Part shown: piece after piece, positions 11,972 through 48,256 of the stretch
Layout: each line of letters opens with the position of its first letter
How positions within the stretch are numbered: position 1 is the stretch's first letter
Source: Chloroflexota bacterium
Lineage (GTDB): Bacteria > Chloroflexota > Dehalococcoidia > Lucifugimonadales > JADFKI01
Assembly (NCBI GenBank): GCA_009840355.1
Contig: VXNZ01000056.1
Coordinates: 62,001-126,000, forward strand
Reading direction: 5' to 3'
Length of the DNA stretch: 64,000 bases
The notes under the pieces: generated by a model
What the model saw: only the letters and a program-made list of their open reading frames with translations
Told to the model about the DNA's origin: nothing
Database searches by the model: none
Position numbers and translations under genes: made by a program

Positions 11972-13549
11972 TCATTGCCATAATAGCGTATCCGGGTACG
12001 TAATGTACCAGCCGAACCAGAAGGATATGTTTGCCGGATGCAGCGGCAGTGTGCGGGTTGGGTCGTCGTGCATCGATAGCGAGTCGCGGTTGATTTGCCA
12101 GATGGCGCCGGTGTCGTCGATTAGCGTGGTGGGCAAGCTGTCGGGCGCGTTGTCCGGCAGCGTGAACTGCATGCCTTCCGTGCGGAATGCGAGCGCGTCC
12201 GATGACAGCGATGACCCCACGATGACCATATCCACGCCACCAACGCTGTCATTGACCACACGCGCTTGCTGCAGTGCGTCTATGGAATATGCCTTGCGCT
12301 CTTCACCTACGGACACGCCCAGAACAAGCCGCTTGGGAGCAAGGCGTTCGTCGCGATTCCATATCGGGAACATCGTCTCCGGGTCCGCTCGGTAGGCGTG
12401 GTATATGGAGCGGCTGTCGTCCTCGCTTTCGTACATACGCGGCGCGTAGTAGCCGGTTTCGCGCGACAGCACTTTAGTGTCCGGATGCTCGGCGCGCCAT
12501 TCGCCCCAAGTGGTGAGCGCGACGGGGAAGTAGTCCAATTTGGCGCCGCTGCCTACCAGTTCGCCTACTATCGGCACGCCGAGAAGTTGGCTCCAGAGCG
12601 TATCGGTTTGGCGGTCGTACATCACCTTGTTGCTGCGGTAGAGCAAGCCGGATGTGCCGAATGTGGTCGGTTCGCCGTTTACCTTCGCGGAATACACGAT
12701 CCCGCTATTGCACAGCGTTCACCACGCCAGCGAGATTGGCTCGCCGCCGACGGTGTCGTTCACCATTTCGTGCCCGTTGATGATACGCAGCGGGTAGGCG
12801 CGTGTGTCGCCGTTGATGGACACGCCGAACACCCTGTCGTCGTCTCGCAGATAGTCCGCCGCCTCCGCAGTCAGCAGCTTCGGCGCGTAGATGTCCGGTA
12901 TGCCGTCCGTAATCACGCCGCCCCAGACAATCTCGGTTGGGTCAACTGAAATCTGCCCATCAAGCGCAGGTCGGAGGAAGCGCGCGAATTGCGGGTATAT
13001 CTGGTACAGGATGTCTATCTTCCAAGCCAGGTAGTCATCCGGCGGCGGGTAGTCTGCGCTGTTCCTGCCTAGCCATTCCATCCACTGCTTCCAATCTTCG
13101 CCGCCGTACTGCTCGCCGGTCAATTCACGCAAGACTTCGGCCGACGCTTCGCGCGCGTTCAGCGTGGACTGGTAGCGCATGGATTCGATAAGCACCGGCA
13201 CCATCGACTTGTCGCCGTTGAGCCTCACTTCTTCGAGCGCGTCGTAGGTGCGAGCACTGGTCATCCCAAAGCCCGGAAACACCTTGTACATCGCGCTGCC
13301 GGAGTCGTATGGTATCGGCGTAGGCTCGGATGTGGATACGGCAGTTGGCGTAGTCACTGCTGATGGTGGCGTCGAAGTTGGGCTAGGCGTTGCTAATTCG
13401 GCGACGGGCGATTGCGCTGCGGGCGTTTCGACCGGCGGTGATATAGGCGCGGGCGTTGGCTCGGCGGCGCAGGCGGCTATCGTGATTAGCGCCGTTGCGA
13501 GCGCAGCAATTAGAACGATGATTGGTATTATTCGTGAGGTTAGTGGCAC
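11972..13549 (-). CDS. DUF3179 lipoprotein, probable selenoprotein (in-frame TGA at U277)
   Basis: Read through one TGA (12719-12721), the frame gives 525 residues matching the DUF3179 family from end to end: HEMVNDTVGGEPISLAW before the TGA, then TLCNSGIVY, a long middle domain, a second VVNDSVGGV, and the closing HPANISFWFGW. The TGA falls on the first Cys of the family's CxxC, giving W-U-T-L-C. The N-terminus is a lipoprotein signal (lipobox TIAAC, Cys27) followed by a Pro/Thr/Ser-rich linker, so the protein is outside the membrane. GTG start at 13549 after AAGGA. A SECIS-like hairpin follows the TGA. The alternative, a nonsense mutation, would have to hit this very codon by chance. Confidence 0.75.
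12687..12721 (-). promoter_or_regulatory. Candidate bacterial SECIS element of the DUF3179 gene
   Basis: On the coding strand the TGA (12721-12719) is followed after 13 nt by GCGGGAT (12705-12699), loop CGTGT (12698-12694) and ATTCCGC (12693-12687). This gives a 7-bp stem with one G-U pair and a 5-nt loop whose second base is G. The loop starts 21 nt after the TGA. Spacing, stem length and loop G agree with the general bacterial SECIS pattern. Confidence 0.65.
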
Positions 13550-15056: not shown

Positions 15057-16658
15057 CTACGGCCGCACCGCCCGCTTCTCCCTCTGCGCCAGCTTGTGCA
15101 GCATTGGCTGCGCGAGCTTGACGAACGTGCACGCCAGGCGGCGTGTCTCGCGCGGGTCTATCAGGTCCACTACATCCCCACGGTAGGCTGCGCGAAAGGG
15201 CGAGCGCAGTTTCAGCAGGCGCTCTTCTATCATCGCGCGGTGTGCCTCCGGGTCGGGCGCGTTCTCGATTTCACGGCGGTACGCAGCCGCCACGCCACCT
15301 TCAATGGGTATGCCGCCCCACTCGCCGGCGGGCCAGCCGAAGCGCAGGTTCAAGCCATCTGGATGCCCTAGGCTGTGCGCCGCGTCCGCTGCCACGCCAT
15401 ACGCCTTGCGGATGTTGAACTCTATCTTCGGCACTTTCGCCTCGGCGCTGGCTATTAGCGCGCGGATGCCGCGTCGCATGGTGGCGATTCGCTCCGCGTG
15501 AGAGCCGAGCATGAAGCCGGGCATGTCCAAGAATATGACGACCGGCAGGTTGAACGCGTCGCACAGGTCAACGAAGTGCGCGTACTTTTCCGCCGCCCAG
15601 CCGTCCATCGCGCCTGCGAGCTTCATCGGGTCGCTGCCTATGATGCCCACGCTGTAGCCGTCGAGCCGGGCGAATCCGGTGATGATTGAACTCGCCCAGT
15701 GGCGGCGCATCTCGAAGAACTCGCCGTTGTCCACGACCAGCTTTATCAATTTGCGCGGGTCGTATCCGCGACGCCTGTTGGGTGGGATGATGTTCAGCAG
15801 CTCTTCGGGACGGCGGTCCGGCGGGTCGCCGGTCTCCACACGCGGCGCTACATCGTTGGTTGTGTTCGGCAGGTAGGATATGAACTTCTTTATCTGATTG
15901 AAGGCATCTTCTTCAGACTCGGCTACATTGTCAACCTGCCCGCTCTCGTGAACATGTCGCTTGTAGCCGCCGAGTTCTTCTTTGTCCATCTGTTCGCCGA
16001 TTGCGCGGCGCACGACGGGCGGTCCGGACGGGAATATCTGCGACTGCTCTTTGACCATGACGGTGAAGTGCGACATCAGCGCGAACGCAGCCGGCGCTCC
16101 CGCGACCGATCCCATAATGCCCGCCGCGACCGGCACGCGCTTCATAAGCTCTACGCCCTTCCACCACAGGTCGCCGCCGGGCAAGCCCATGTGCCCTGCC
16201 GCCTCGTCCGCCTTCGCGCTGTGCCCGACGCCTTCAACGAGCTGGATGTACGGAATGCCGTACTGCGTGGCGAGCGGCTGCGTGAACTGCCGCGAGTGCT
16301 TGCGGACATTGTGCGGGCTGCCGCCGGATATGGTGAAATCGTCGCCGCCGATAGCGACCGGGCGCCCGTCAATCTCGCCAAGCCCCATCACATACGCGCC
16401 GGGCGTGAACTCGACCATATTGCCTTCGTCGTCGAACTCGGCTGCGCCAACCATCGGACCGGCTTCTAGGAAACTTCCGGGGTCAACCATCTTCTCGATG
16501 CGCTCGCGGATGGTGTAGCGTCCGCCGCTGTGCTGTCGTTTCACGCGCTCTGTCCCCCCCAGCTCAGCGGCTAGACTTCGCACGTACTTCATGTCATCGA
16601 TGGCTTGCTCCCACGGCTCGCCGGGCTTCCACATATCGCGGTTCTTGTCGATTGGCAT
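15057..16658 (-). CDS. Acyl-CoA carboxylase, carboxyltransferase subunit (PccB/MccB type)
   Basis: At 533 residues it has both crotonase-fold halves of a biotin-dependent carboxyltransferase. The first half carries YGIPYIQLVEGVGHS and GSVAGAPAAFALMSHF; the second carries RLDGYSVGIIGSDPMKLAGA and VVIFLDMPGFMLGSHAE. Such subunits move CO2 from biotin to an acyl-CoA such as propionyl-, acetyl- or methylcrotonyl-CoA. The ATG at 16658 follows AAAGGA. It closes a minus-strand block with biotin carboxylase, biotinyl protein, a CoA-transferase and BioY. It is distinct from the fused AccDA at 33809, so the cell has two carboxyltransferases. Confidence 0.9.
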   Translation of the reverse strand: MPIDKNRDMWKPGEPWEQAIDDMKYVRSLAAELGGTERVKRQHSGGRYTIRERIEKMVDPGSFLEAGPMVGAAEFDDEGNMVEFTPGAYVMGLGEIDGRPVAIGGDDFTISGGSPHNVRKHSRQFTQPLATQYGIPYIQLVEGVGHSAKADEAAGHMGLPGGDLWWKGVELMKRVPVAAGIMGSVAGAPAAFALMSHFTVMVKEQSQIFPSGPPVVRRAIGEQMDKEELGGYKRHVHESGQVDNVAESEEDAFNQIKKFISYLPNTTNDVAPRVETGDPPDRRPEELLNIIPPNRRRGYDPRKLIKLVVDNGEFFEMRRHWASSIITGFARLDGYSVGIIGSDPMKLAGAMDGWAAEKYAHFVDLCDAFNLPVVIFLDMPGFMLGSHAERIATMRRGIRALIASAEAKVPKIEFNIRKAYGVAADAAHSLGHPDGLNLRFGWPAGEWGGIPIEGGVAAAYRREIENAPDPEAHRAMIEERLLKLRSPFRAAYRGDVVDLIDPRETRRLACTFVKLAQPMLHKLAQREKRAVRP

Positions 16659-16765
16659 ATTCAGTCCTTTCAGTTATCTGCCATACCGGGCAACGTGAAT
16701 AATTTGAAATCGGAGACATGCCCCTATCTTCGCTGCGCTGCGCCGAGAATGACAATTGACGGAGG

Positions 16766-18136
16766 TTACCCCCAGCCCAAGCGGGGCAGCACATCGCCGT
16801 ACCGCGAGAGCGAGCCTATCAGGTCGGTGGTGTACAGACCGGCGACGAAGTCCGGGTGCACCAGCGCCACATGGAGCGCGCCGATGTTTGTCGCCACGCC
16901 GCGCACTTCGGTGGCGTCAAGCGCCTCTTGCATTAGCCATATCGCTTCGTCTCTAGTGTCGCCCCATGATATGAACTTGGCGAGCAGCGGGTCAAAGTAT
17001 GGCGTTACGACATCGCCTTCGCGGAATCCGCTGTCGATGCGCAGGTCGGGCATGGTGGGCAGGCGGAATGTTTCGAGCGTGCCGGGCCAGGGGATGAATG
17101 TGCGCGGGTCTTCGGCGTAGATACGGCACTCGACAGCGTAGCCGTTCAGCAGCACATCGCTTTCGATGGACAGCGGCAGACCCGCTGCGGCGCGGAGCTG
17201 CTGTTCCACGATGTCCACGCCGGTGACCGCTTCCGTGATGCCGTGCTCTACCTGAAGACGCGTGTTCGCTTCGAGGAAGAACGCCGAGTAGCTATCGTCC
17301 ACGAGGAACTCAAATGTGCCCGCGCCGGCATAGTTTGTGGCGCGGGCGGCGTTTTCCGCCCAGCTCACGAGCGATTGGCGCACGGACGGCGGCAGGCTAG
17401 GCGCGGGCGCTTCTTCGATGACCTTTTGATGCCTGCGCTGCGCGGAGCATTCGCGTTCCCACAGATGGCGCGTGTTGCCGAGTTCGTCCGCGATAATTTG
17501 CACTTCGATGTGTCGTGTAGGCTTGACCAGCTTCTCGAAGTACACTAGGTCGCTGCCGAAAGCGCGGAGTGCGGTCGAGCTGGCGCGTAGAACTGCGTCG
17601 TGCAGCCGGTCCGGGTGTTCCACCATCTGCATGCCGATGCCGCCGCCGCCGTCGTTCGCCTTGACCATCAGCGGAAACCCTATCTCCGCGGCGCCGGCGT
17701 CCACGCTTGCCGAGTCAGCCGCATTGACATTGACGCCGGGCAGCACTGGCACGCCGAGCGAGTCCATCTTCTCGCGCGCCTGCCACTTGTCCGCCATCAG
17801 CCGCGCGAGTTCCGGTCGGGGACCTATGAAGACGACGCCGTGCTTCGCGCACTGATTGGTGAGCGCGTATGATTCGGACAGAAAGCCGTAGCCGGGATGG
17901 ATGGCGTCCGCACCGCTCTTGAGCGCAATCTCGACAATCGCCTCGGCATCGAGGTACGACCCGGCGGGCGTCTCGCGCTCCGGCAGTTCGTATGCCTCGT
18001 CCGCGAGTTCGGCATGCAGCGGCATGCCTTCCGCAGATGTATAGACCGCGACCGCGCTCACGCCGATATTGCGGCACGTCTGTATGATGCGACAGGCAAT
18101 CTCGCCCCGATTCGCAATGAGAACTTTGCCGAACAC
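16766..18136 (-). CDS. accC: Biotin carboxylase subunit
   Basis: A 456-residue ATP-grasp enzyme that carboxylates biotin with bicarbonate and ATP. It starts FGKVLIANRGEIACRI, has HPGYGFLSES (about 89-98), the Gly-rich ATP loop KANDGGGGIGM, the E-R-E-C-S segment, and FFLEANTRLQVEHGITE with the catalytic Glu/Asn/Arg. Length matches stand-alone AccC, without a fused biotinyl domain; that domain is the separate protein encoded 7 bp upstream. The symbol refers to the family; its natural target is probably the carboxyltransferase at 15057. Confidence 0.92.
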   Translation of the reverse strand: MFGKVLIANRGEIACRIIQTCRNIGVSAVAVYTSAEGMPLHAELADEAYELPERETPAGSYLDAEAIVEIALKSGADAIHPGYGFLSESYALTNQCAKHGVVFIGPRPELARLMADKWQAREKMDSLGVPVLPGVNVNAADSASVDAGAAEIGFPLMVKANDGGGGIGMQMVEHPDRLHDAVLRASSTALRAFGSDLVYFEKLVKPTRHIEVQIIADELGNTRHLWERECSAQRRHQKVIEEAPAPSLPPSVRQSLVSWAENAARATNYAGAGTFEFLVDDSYSAFFLEANTRLQVEHGITEAVTGVDIVEQQLRAAAGLPLSIESDVLLNGYAVECRIYAEDPRTFIPWPGTLETFRLPTMPDLRIDSGFREGDVVTPYFDPLLAKFISWGDTRDEAIWLMQEALDATEVRGVATNIGALHVALVHPDFVAGLYTTDLIGSLSRYGDVLPRLGWG

Positions 18137-18143
18137 TGCCCGC

Positions 18144-18365
18144 TCACTCCTCGAGAATCAGCATCACATCGTCTTGCGATATGTTCTGGTTGTTACGAAC
18201 GCGAATCTCTTTGACCACGCCGTCGTAGTCGGAAAGAATCTCGTTCTCCATCTTCATGGATTCGATGACGACCAACACATCGCCGAACTCGACGGTATCG
18301 CCGACCGACACGCTTATTTCAACTATGACTCCGGTTATCGGTGATTCGACTGGTATATCTGCCAA
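18144..18365 (-). CDS. Biotin carboxyl carrier (biotinyl domain) protein
   Basis: A minimal 73-residue lipoyl/biotinyl domain with the biotinylation motif ESMKME, Lys38 being the acceptor. It has only the swinging domain: no Pro/Ala linker and no N-terminal region of the usual 150-residue AccB. It starts with ATG at 18365 and ends 7 bp before the biotin carboxylase, which indicates co-translation. It shuttles carboxybiotin between the carboxylase and carboxyltransferase active sites. Confidence 0.9.
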   Translation of the reverse strand: MADIPVESPITGVIVEISVSVGDTVEFGDVLVVIESMKMENEILSDYDGVVKEIRVRNNQNISQDDVMLILEE

Positions 18366-18483
18366 CCCACTTTCACCTCGTTAAGAAAATTGCACCTGCC
18401 AGTTTATCAAGATTGTAGAAGGGATTCACCCTAACAAGTCCTGTGTATGCTGTTAGTTGCTGGCAATTGCTGCCAATTGCCAA

Positions 18484-20961
18484 CTATTCGCTGCCCAATA
18501 ATTCGTCAAGTATGTATTCGTTGTGCGCTCCCAGACGCGCGGATGGTCGCCAGTTTTGCTTGGGCAGCCCGTCCGTGATGATAGCCTGCCCCGGGTATGT
18601 TTTGCGTCCTATGTCCGGCTCGTCCAAGGATACGAAGAAGTCACGCGCTCTCAGGTGCGGGTCTGCGAGCATGTCCACGCTGCGATGCACCGCGCCGGCC
18701 GGGACGCCTGCCGCTTGAAGCGCGTTCATCGCTTCTACGGCATCGCGGGCGCTTGTCCACGCGGCTATGATGTCGTCCAGCGCGGCTTCGTTAGCCTTGC
18801 GCGCCGCTTCATCACGGAAGCGCGCGTCGTTCGCTAAGTCGGTATCGGCAATCACTTCGCATAGCGCCGCCCACTGCTCTTCGCATGTTATGGCAATGGC
18901 AAGCCATCTGTCATCACCGCGGCAGGGGTAAACGCCGTGCGGCGCGTACTTGTGGTGCTTGTTGCCCTTGCGCGGCGGTTGTGCGCCGGTGCGGGAATGT
19001 GCGCCGATAAACTCGCCTATCTGACATACGGGACCTTCCGCAAGCGCGATGTCGATGAACTGCCCCTGTCCTGTTGCCGTGCGGTGTCGCAGCGCAGTCA
19101 TTATAGCAGCAGCCGAGTTCATCCCGGCGACCGGGTCCGGATACGCGATGCCCGATGTCATCGGCATTTCGCCATCGTAGCCCATCAGGCTGGGGATGCC
19201 GGTGATGGATTCGACGGATGTGCCGTACGCGGGGAACTCCGCCGCCGCGCCTTCCGAGCCGTAGCCGGATATGGAGCAGAGAATGATGTCCGGCCGCACC
19301 TGCCGCAGTGAATCGTAGTCCAGCCGGAAGTTACGCATCACATGCGGACGGAAGCTCTCGATTACGATGTCGGACACGGCGGCGAGTTCCAAGAACGCGT
19401 CCCTACCCTCCGGCAAGTCCAGACGCAACGCGAGACTGTCTTTGTTGCGATTGTGCTTATTGTCCACGCCGCGCGTGCGGTCGATAGGCACACGCGGATC
19501 CCACACCTTGACCACATGCGCGCCATAATCGCCCAGAATCCGCGCCACCAGGGGGCCCGCCCAGACGCGCGTCAGGTCTATCACGCGAATTCCGGACAGC
19601 AAGCCGCGCTGTGCTATGCGCTCTTGCAGCGCCATCGCTATTGGAGAATTGCCGTGCCGACGGGCGGCGTCGGACGGCATGCTTAGCGTACTTTGCGCGG
19701 GCGAATCATCGGTATATTCAGGTGGTGCATTGTCCGGCGAGTCGTCCGTGAGAGTAGGCTTTGCCGGCGATGCGGGCGGCGCAGTATTCGGCGGATTGTG
19801 CTGCCCTAGCAACGGCGCGGGCTTGAATTGCGGTGGCGTAGCGCTCATGTGGAAGGGAAAGCGAGGGAATGTCAGCCTGCCGCCTTGCGGATGAGCGAAT
19901 TCGGCGAACAGACCGCGATAATTGTACTGGCTGTCTTGCAGTGTTTCCGACAGGTCGAATACGGGGGATGCCGGCACGGAATACACACCTGCCGCTAGTT
20001 CGACAATTTCCTGCCGCGTCTTGTCGGCGCACCATTCGAGAAGTATCTCGTCGATCTCGTCGGCGGCGTCCTTGAGGCTTGTGAATGCGGCGAAGCGCGG
20101 GTCGATGAGCAAGTCTTCGCGGCCTATCATGGCACAAACATAGTCCCACTGGTGCGCGGCGGACGCGGAGAATGTGATATAGCCATCTTTGCAGGGCAGC
20201 GTGGTTATCGGGTACCCGCCGGTGCGCCGTCCCGTTGCCAGCCGCACGCCGGCCCGCTTGCGGATGATGCCGTCGTACTCGTGCGAGACGAATGTGAATT
20301 GGTGCAGCGCGCCCAATGCCTCCATTTCCGACACTTCGACGGGCTGTCCCTTGCCCGTGATTTCGCGCGCGAGCAGGGCGAGCATCAAGCCGGCGTAGCC
20401 TTTGAGCGCGGTCAGACGCTGCGCCTGATAGCCGGGCAGCATCAGCGGCTCGCGGGTCTCTTCGCCGCTCAGGTACAGGTAGCCGCCGAGCGCAAGGCTG
20501 ACAATCGGCGTGGATTGCCAGTCGGCGTATGGACCGGTCAAGCCGAATGGCGTCAGCGACAGGTTGACCAGCAGCGGGTTGAGCGCCTGCAATGTCGCCG
20601 CGTCGATGCCCAGAGATTGGCGTGTGCGCGGCTGCCAGTCGTCTATCAGCACATCGGCATTTGCCGCCAAATCGAGCAGCACAGCCATGCCGTCCGCGCT
20701 CTGCCAGTCGAGCAAGACGCTTTCCTTGCCCATGTTGTCATACAGGAACAGCGCGCCGGATTCGGGCGCATAGCAGTCGGGCAATTGTGGCTGCGCGTAG
20801 CGTGTCCAGCTGCCGCGCGGCGGGCGTTCGACCTTGATGACGCGTGCGCCGAATGCCGCGAGCATGCGCCCGCAGAACGCCCCTGCGACAGATTCCGCAA
20901 CCTCGATTACGGTGAGATCGGCTAGGGGCAGGACGCCGGATGATGCCGCTTCGTTGCTCAT
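18484..20961 (-). CDS. Double CaiB/BaiF (family III) CoA-transferase
   Basis: The 825-residue protein is a fusion of two CaiB/BaiF domains (about 1-385 and 435-825) joined by a linker rich in Pro, Ser, Thr and Asp (about 388-425). The C-terminal half keeps the IRVIDLTRVWAGP opening and YPDPVAGM, whose Asp is the expected acyl-carrying residue. The equivalent point of the N-terminal half (PGYQAQRLTALKGYAG) lacks the Asp, so probably only one site is catalytic. Family III enzymes exchange CoA between carboxylic acids. It starts 12 bp after bioY, within the biotin block, so it may make the acyl-CoA that is then carboxylated (inference). Confidence 0.88.
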   Translation of the reverse strand: MSNEAASSGVLPLADLTVIEVAESVAGAFCGRMLAAFGARVIKVERPPRGSWTRYAQPQLPDCYAPESGALFLYDNMGKESVLLDWQSADGMAVLLDLAANADVLIDDWQPRTRQSLGIDAATLQALNPLLVNLSLTPFGLTGPYADWQSTPIVSLALGGYLYLSGEETREPLMLPGYQAQRLTALKGYAGLMLALLAREITGKGQPVEVSEMEALGALHQFTFVSHEYDGIIRKRAGVRLATGRRTGGYPITTLPCKDGYITFSASAAHQWDYVCAMIGREDLLIDPRFAAFTSLKDAADEIDEILLEWCADKTRQEIVELAAGVYSVPASPVFDLSETLQDSQYNYRGLFAEFAHPQGGRLTFPRFPFHMSATPPQFKPAPLLGQHNPPNTAPPASPAKPTLTDDSPDNAPPEYTDDSPAQSTLSMPSDAARRHGNSPIAMALQERIAQRGLLSGIRVIDLTRVWAGPLVARILGDYGAHVVKVWDPRVPIDRTRGVDNKHNRNKDSLALRLDLPEGRDAFLELAAVSDIVIESFRPHVMRNFRLDYDSLRQVRPDIILCSISGYGSEGAAAEFPAYGTSVESITGIPSLMGYDGEMPMTSGIAYPDPVAGMNSAAAIMTALRHRTATGQGQFIDIALAEGPVCQIGEFIGAHSRTGAQPPRKGNKHHKYAPHGVYPCRGDDRWLAIAITCEEQWAALCEVIADTDLANDARFRDEAARKANEAALDDIIAAWTSARDAVEAMNALQAAGVPAGAVHRSVDMLADPHLRARDFFVSLDEPDIGRKTYPGQAIITDGLPKQNWRPSARLGAHNEYILDELLGSE

Positions 20962-20973
20962 TGCCTGCCGGCT

Positions 20974-21642
20974 TTAGTCCCTCGACCTGTTGCGGTGATC
21001 GGCAACAGCCCAGCCTGCGCTGATGACGATGGACGAGAGCATGAGCTTGACCAGATCGCCGGGGATGAACGGGTACACCGCGCCGGAGAACAGCTCGCCT
21101 TGCGCGGGCCAGCCGAAGTCGAAGATGGACAGCCATATCAGCGCGGGGACGTATATCCACAGGTTGCCGAGCAGCATCGCCCACAGCCCTTTGCCGCGAA
21201 TCCAGCCGCGCTCGGACATGAAGCCGATAATTGGCACTGCCGTGATGAAGCCGATGAGGTAGCCGCCCGTAACGCCCGCGATCGAGCTCAAGCCTCTGGC
21301 GGTGTCCCACGACAGATCGGGATTGGCGAACATCGGCGCGCCCACCATGCCAAGCAGGTAGTACACAATGATTGCCCCCAAGCCCCAGCGCCAGCCGAGA
21401 AAGCCGCCCATCATCAGGACGCCAGCCGTCTGGAATGTGATAGGCACGGGGTTGTCGGGCAAGTAGAAGTGCAGCTTACCGCAGATTGCGAGAACGACTA
21501 CCGCCGCCAGCGCCAACAGCGCGCGCTGAACGGTCGTTAACGAAGGAAACAGCGCATCCATCAGCGACGGATTACGCGTACCGATAAGAGCCTCGCCCGA
21601 CTCGCGAGCAAGCGATGGCGCCGTGCTTATGTCTCTCTGCAT
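20974..21642 (-). CDS. bioY: BioY-like biotin transporter (ECF S component)
   Basis: A 222-residue membrane protein with about six helices. The stretch FYLPDNPVPITFQTAGVLM (about 63-81) and the later GYLIGFITAVPIIGF are characteristic of BioY, the substrate-binding subunit of energy-coupling-factor biotin transporters. AGGAGG ten bases before the ATG at 21642 decides the start; a longer frame exists but has no such signal. No EcfA/T genes are in the window, so it may use a shared energising module or work alone. Leading a block of biotin enzymes, it supplies their cofactor. Confidence 0.85.
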   Translation of the reverse strand: MQRDISTAPSLARESGEALIGTRNPSLMDALFPSLTTVQRALLALAAVVVLAICGKLHFYLPDNPVPITFQTAGVLMMGGFLGWRWGLGAIIVYYLLGMVGAPMFANPDLSWDTARGLSSIAGVTGGYLIGFITAVPIIGFMSERGWIRGKGLWAMLLGNLWIYVPALIWLSIFDFGWPAQGELFSGAVYPFIPGDLVKLMLSSIVISAGWAVADHRNRSRD

Positions 21643-21838
21643 AAAGAACCCGCCTCCTGCGTAGAATGCGTGATTGGCGTTGTTGTGCGCGATGTCGGCG
21701 ATTTTGGTTACCACGTGATTGCGCAGCCGCGATTGCCGACAGTGACTCTCAATAGCCCGCGCCGATGGTAGCAACGCGGCGTGGCGGTGTCAAGGAAGCG
21801 ATGCTTTGGACGGTCCCTTGCTTTGCGGCGCTGTCACC

Positions 21839-47504: not shown

Positions 47505-47537
47505 ACAAAAAATCCCGCCCACAAAAGGGACGGGATT
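47505..47537 (-). terminator. T-box-controlled terminator before ilvB
   Basis: On the minus strand AATCCCGTCCC, loop TTTTGT and GGGCGGGATT form a strong stem with one bulge, followed by TTTTTTG. It lies directly downstream of the T-box sequence and would compete with the antiterminator. Confidence 0.85.
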
Positions 47538-47795
47538 AGAAATCTCGCGGTACCACCCAATTTGCCCCCTAGTATCCAACAGATGTTTCTTGGACGCCCA
47601 ATGTGAACGCCATTGGCAGGAGACCTCTTAACGGCTGATAACGGTTGCCAACCGACCAACCCTAGTAGGCGGCGAAAGTGCCGTCGTTCGGGCTGGGCGC
47701 TCAGGGGCGAGTTCCGGAAGGTCCTGTGGCATCGGCTCGCAGCGCCGCCGACTCTCTGTTGCCGGTGCCTCCCGTACTACTCCCCATCTTTGCGT
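47505..47795 (-). promoter_or_regulatory. T-box riboswitch leader of the ilv operon
   Basis: The invariant T-box sequence GGGTGGTACCGCG is at 47558-47546 on the minus strand, directly before a terminator. Upstream are stem I features: GATGGGGAGTAGTA (near 47787-47774) and AGAGAGTCGGCGG (near 47753-47741). In the GGAACTCGCCCCTGAGC segment of stem I the triplet CTC is the best specifier candidate, which would sense tRNA-Leu(GAG); this assignment is less sure than the T-box itself. Uncharged tRNA would let transcription continue into ilvB. Confidence 0.88.
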
Positions 47796-47843
47796 TTCGG
47801 ATTATCGTATCATCTTGTTCAGTGCGCCTGTTTGGTGCGAATG

Positions 47844-48180: not shown

Positions 48181-48256
48181 TGGTCGGGGCGACTGGACTT
48201 GAACCAGCGACCTCCACGTCCCGAACGTGGCGCGCTCCCGACTGCGCTACGCCCCG
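48181..48256 (-). tRNA. tRNA-Pro (anticodon CGG)
   Basis: A 76-base cloverleaf with encoded CCA: acceptor CGGGGCG pairs with CGCCCCG, D-arm GCGCAGTCGGGAGCGC, anticodon stem CCACG/CGTGG around TTCGGGA (anticodon CGG), and T-arm with GGTTCAAGTCC. The C1-G72 pair is typical of bacterial tRNA-Pro. Confidence 0.95.

Follow-up and report, generated by a model that had tools for sequence, protein, structure and literature searches.

Comparative evidence for a selenocysteine-containing DUF3179 lipoprotein in a SAR202-like Chloroflexota bacterium

Overview

The window analysed here, i.e., the whole stretch of 64,000 nucleotides from a contig of a marine, SAR202-like Chloroflexota bacterium, encodes a DUF3179 lipoprotein in a reading frame that is interrupted by an internal TGA, and comparisons with related genes strongly support the view that this gene is real and intact and that its internal stop is decoded as selenocysteine (Sec). 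The first-pass annotation of this DNA had proposed a probable new selenoprotein family. The selenoprotein part of that proposal is upheld by the codon census, the Sec genes and the hairpin described below, whereas the "new family" part is not, DUF3179 being already tabulated among selenoproteins (PMC9312934, PMC13188914); the gene adds a strongly supported member and lineage to an established selenoprotein family. The same annotation had suggested a search for homologues with TGA at this Cys position, a search for selA, selB, selC and selD in the same genome and a test of the hairpin downstream of the TGA, and it had named a sense codon other than Cys in relatives as evidence that would count against Sec.

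The gene and its product

The gene is read from 13549 to 11972, and the features assigned to it are as follows.

11972 to 13549, minus strand: complete DUF3179 lipoprotein gene, predicted to contain Sec; GTG start at 13549, terminal TGA at 11974-11972, 525 aa
13469 to 13549, minus strand: signal peptide with lipobox I-A-A-C (Cys27), a lipoprotein export signal, read by eye from the sequence
12957 to 13321, minus strand: N-terminal helical (HEAT-like) repeats, model residues 1-122, from an all-helical model with alphaRep/HEAT matches at Z about 6-7
12422 to 12937, minus strand: DUF3179 domain 1, which bears UxxC, with a predicted Rieske-like beta fold (model pLDDT 95)
12719 to 12721, minus strand: in-frame TGA, read as Sec, residue 277, the first position of U-x-x-C, from translation and codon census
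12687 to 12705, minus strand: bacterial SECIS hairpin GCGGGAU-CGUGU-AUUCCGC, with a 7-bp stem (12705-12699 / 12693-12687) and loop CGUGU (12698-12694)
11972 to 12340, minus strand: second half of DUF3179, a degenerate repeat of domain 1 without CxxC, from secondary HMM hits and structural matches

With TGA translated as Sec, the 525-residue product contains a single internal TGA (12721-12719) in the motif W-U-T-L-C and ends at an ordinary TGA, in agreement with the earlier description of a frame broken once. An AAGGA sequence can be read by eye upstream of the GTG start. The read-through product matches Pfam DUF3179 (PF11376) at residues 215-521, covering model positions 2-292 of 292 (E 2.2e-80; 270.7 bits against a cut-off of 27). 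Without read-through, ordinary gene calling splits the gene into ORFs at 12719-13549 (276 aa) and 11972-12697 (241 aa). For the second half of the family region, the same HMM gives secondary hits in related proteins, where the CxxC column is occupied by Asp, Glu, Ser or Asn, and structural matches to this half lie at 338-446.

Codon census and switching between Sec and Cys

We compiled 80 non-redundant DUF3179 genes from public loci and from 60 genomes within the host's genus, family and order, leaving out 16 rows with GAC, GAG, GAT, AGC or AAC that are second-half hits of the same proteins or lone partial second-half matches (L043, L111). The codon aligned to the Sec position is TGA in 54 of these genes and TGC or TGT in the remaining 26, with no other codon at all; homologues with TGA at this Cys were found, as predicted, and the non-Cys sense codon that would have spoken against Sec was not. 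The second Cys of UxxC is invariant in the aligned proteins (72/72), and public assemblies under three different names (L018, L019 and L020) all keep the same TGA. A tree of the 80 genes requires four or more Sec/Cys switches on branches with good support; in it, the host gene falls beside L018 (95% identity), within a Sec clade whose motif is UTLC. When the gene is compared with this relative (93% identical in protein), differences at the first, second and third codon positions number 5/2/18 upstream of the TGA and 11/6/38 downstream, i.e., they fall mostly at third positions on both sides, the pattern of purifying selection, which thus persists past the TGA.

A second TGA within the domain is found in one of the 54 Sec genes, L108 (2733-3960, plus strand, genome G050), where it lies 32 codons ahead of the Sec codon (LVLGLEUNGEARAYP); this locus also has several TGAs beyond the domain and is probably a decaying copy or the product of assembly errors. 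In the L073 row, TGAs occur solely beyond its second-half hit. Tandem DUF3179 genes are present at L077 (G017:C1:1853434-1861363), the first with Cys (HCVLC) and the second with Sec (YUTLC).

In a survey of 151 genomes spread over the phylum, DUF3179 genes from beyond this order were mostly free of internal stops; the Sec form is thus concentrated in the order without being confined to it. Another family of the phylum has a short one-TGA form (345 aa), in which the middle part of the Pfam model is missing, at G069:C10:279281-280102, with similar places in G110, G119, G167, G191 and G207; longer copies there have no internal stop.

The hairpin downstream of the TGA

The coordinates confirm the hairpin that had been described from the sequence, with 7 bp and a CGUGU loop that begins 20 nt after the TGA, the stem beginning 13 nt after it. 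Single-sequence folding is weak, the hairpin scoring a little better than shuffled sequences (z -1.76); its significance comes from comparative evidence. For the comparison we used 45 Sec genes that align without gaps after the TGA, with a 7-bp stem and a 5-nt loop 20 nt after the TGA; the set omits five Sec genes of the UIKC/UVLC clade, whose GC-rich stem is slightly displaced, as well as a few duplicates and near-identical genes. Across this set, 87% of the stem cells pair, and the covariation score is 0.432 against 0.122 ± 0.019 in shuffled alignments (0/500 as high) and at most 0.106 for slid partners. The compensatory changes involve whole codons (GGA with TCC, GGC with GCC, GCC with GGC, GCT with AGC), and a GU near the loop start is present in nearly all Sec genes. 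In the 26 Cys homologues, 43% of the same positions pair, with no covariation, and protein sequence therefore does not explain the hairpin. Tested in this comparative way, with covariation in Sec genes that is absent from Cys genes, the hairpin is a genuine SECIS element.

Host genome and Sec machinery

The genome that contains the window comprises 3.28 Mb in 57 contigs, and among named records it is closest to Chloroflexi bacterium SB0664_bin_29, SAR202 cluster bacterium bin90 and a Dehalococcoidia bin. The search for Sec genes recovered all four, each above its curated cut-off: tRNA-Sec (selC; anticodon UCA, 66 bits against a cut-off of 47), selB (342 bits), selA (531 bits) and selD (390 bits). 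The host selD (L016, G000:C14:129387-130307) has an in-frame TGA of its own in the motif CAGU, and SelD itself appears to be a selenoprotein. Of the three DUF3179 genes in this genome, one has Cys and the other two each contain a single TGA.

Among the 60 related genomes, tRNA-Sec was detected in 52, and its co-occurrence with Sec-DUF3179 (28/31 versus 24/29, Fisher p 0.47) is uninformative, tRNA-Sec being almost universal in the order. Three genomes with Sec-DUF3179 gave no strong tRNA-Sec hit (G009, borderline at 47.3 bits, G049 and G053), a gap that we count against our best explanation; complete selA is present in all three, and the missing tRNA-Sec is probably an assembly or detection loss.

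Predicted structure and the Rieske comparison

An AlphaFold2 model based on an alignment of 72 relatives (pLDDT 96.5) predicts the N-terminal helical repeats followed by two β domains, and domain 1 modelled alone reaches a pLDDT of 95.4. All 50 structural matches listed for domain 1 are Rieske proteins, including Rieske ferredoxins, NirD and the Rieske domains of oxygenases, arsenite oxidase and bc-type complexes, with 84-109 residues aligned at Z 5.5-7.8, the best value lying below the 8 from which the structure-search tool advises trust. Foldseek agrees weakly (E no better than 0.04). A search of solved structures by sequence gave no relevant match, the Rieske Pfam model PF00355 gave no hit in the DUF3179 protein, and a profile comparison between DUF3179 and a Rieske alignment made up of two proteins of the host genome found nothing; common descent of the two is unproven because this profile comparison was negative.

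Alignment ranges locate the region where the CxH/CxxH cluster ligands would be expected, and no Cys or His stands at its conserved positions; the cluster-loop positions appear to hold the conserved FGxSG and MYDRxTxSLW instead. By the same ranges, UxxC would sit on the turn that links barrel strands three and four, away from the cluster loops. A placement of UxxC at the Rieske CxxH loop was dropped, since the ranges, in which 91–98 of some 103 residues align, put the cluster loops about 10 to 40 residues beyond UxxC. The strand that pairs with the one entering UxxC begins with an invariant N and D and a near-invariant H and E. One tentative scenario, which we think possible rather than probable, is that DUF3179 arose from the Rieske fold by losing the [2Fe-2S] cluster and gaining a (seleno)Cys-x-x-Cys pair on a different turn, and that SAR202-like Chloroflexota expanded it into exported Se-dependent redox lipoproteins; if true, this would mean that selenium plays a part, so far overlooked, at the surface of a lineage that is abundant in the ocean.

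Proposed function and alternative readings

The reading that we favour, and regard as likely, is that the exported DUF3179 lipoprotein carries Sec in place of the first CxxC Cys through SelB/SECIS decoding, with UxxC as a membrane-anchored redox pair. SelB with Sec-tRNA(UCA) would bind the hairpin 13-31 nt after the UGA, so that the UGA next to the hairpin is decoded as Sec while the same codon still terminates the gene. In the model, U-x-x-C would lie on a beta-hairpin turn of the Rieske-like domain, close in sequence to the invariant N and D and the near-invariant H and E, and the pair would most likely form a reversible selenenylsulfide. The motif and its conservation suggest that the protein is probably an exported (seleno)thiol redox lipoprotein, which would act outside the cytoplasm on thiols, disulfides or peroxides.

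The main rival accepts the same selenoprotein and makes UxxC a soft-metal site (e.g., Cu, Hg or Zn) in place of a catalytic redox pair. We judge this unlikely, Sec in place of Cys being usually read as a sign of catalytic redox chemistry, and no metal-transport genes adjoin the gene; it would nonetheless suit a protein predicted to be exported and lipid-anchored, with conserved His, Glu, Asn and Asp near the motif in sequence, and published selenoprotein tables do include proteins with UxxC or C/SxxU that handle metals, among them MerT and a metal-transporting ATPase (PMC9312934, PMC13188914).

The neighbourhood of the gene yielded no functional partner: one flank holds an amidase, the other acyl-CoA carboxylase, biotin carboxylase, CoA-transferase and BioY. 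Other subclade members have different genes beside them, and these gave no partner either. The genes at 15057-21774 (minus strand) of the window, for a carboxyltransferase, a biotin carboxylase, a double CoA-transferase III protein and the BioY biotin transporter, form a probable acyl-CoA carboxylase operon. Elsewhere in the window, a tRNA gene (48184-48256, minus strand) lies some 400 bases upstream of a T-box leader on the same strand (47523-47799, 117 bits).

Decoding of the TGA as some other amino acid (e.g., Trp), through a code change or leaky read-through, is very improbable. Leaky UGA does occur in bacteria and the residue before the TGA is often Trp, but the sole alternative at the codon itself is Cys, never Trp, the host gene and its close relatives terminate on TGA, and the Sec machinery is complete; a general reassignment of TGA is rejected on the codon census, the hairpin covariation and the selection past the TGA. 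A sequencing error or pseudogene stop, which the source assembly in 57 contigs might suggest, is scarcely credible and was ruled out by TGA at the identical codon in 54 genes, the covarying hairpin and the strong selection downstream.

Comparison with known systems

In bacterial SECIS elements of the fdhF type, the hairpin lies about 16-37 nt from the UGA and a G occupies one of the first two loop bases. The DUF3179 hairpin shares this range, the G and a GU in the loop, and differs in its nearly fixed 20-nt spacing, in the covariation of its stem within the family and in having no Rfam match (SECIS search, E up to 5). With the Rieske [2Fe-2S] ferredoxins and NirD, DUF3179 may share the fold predicted for its domain 1; it differs in the absence of the cluster ligands from the expected place and of profile-level similarity, and in the turn that bears UxxC.

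Ordinary annotation cuts Sec-DUF3179 genes into two false ORFs, and such proteins have therefore likely been overlooked in SAR202-like genomes. Our literature searches by family name or accession found no functional study of DUF3179, and we found no report on selenoproteins in SAR202, nor any publication on the concentration of the Sec form in this order with several Sec/Cys switches, or on a confident DUF3179 model with a Rieske-like first β domain and a UxxC turn off the cluster position. These genes form an unusually clean natural Sec/Cys series of one protein with a confident predicted structure, so that what DUF3179 does, and why Sec and Cys replace each other in it, can be put to the test.

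DUF3179 (pfam11376, UxxC/T) is listed in the selenoprotein tables of two reviews (PMC9312934, 2022; PMC13188914, 2026), both of which credit Zhang & Gladyshev (Nucleic Acids Res 2007 35:4952); on the word of these reviews, on which the 2007 priority rests, the first report came from the Olavius algarvensis delta1 symbiont. The O. algarvensis protein and those described here share the Pfam family, Sec at the first UxxC position and the existence of Cys homologues. They differ in that the Chloroflexota (SAR202-like) proteins form the Sec subclades UTLC, UPLC, UPIC and UIKC, often with more than one per genome, and in the lipobox and N-terminal helical repeats that the host member carries.
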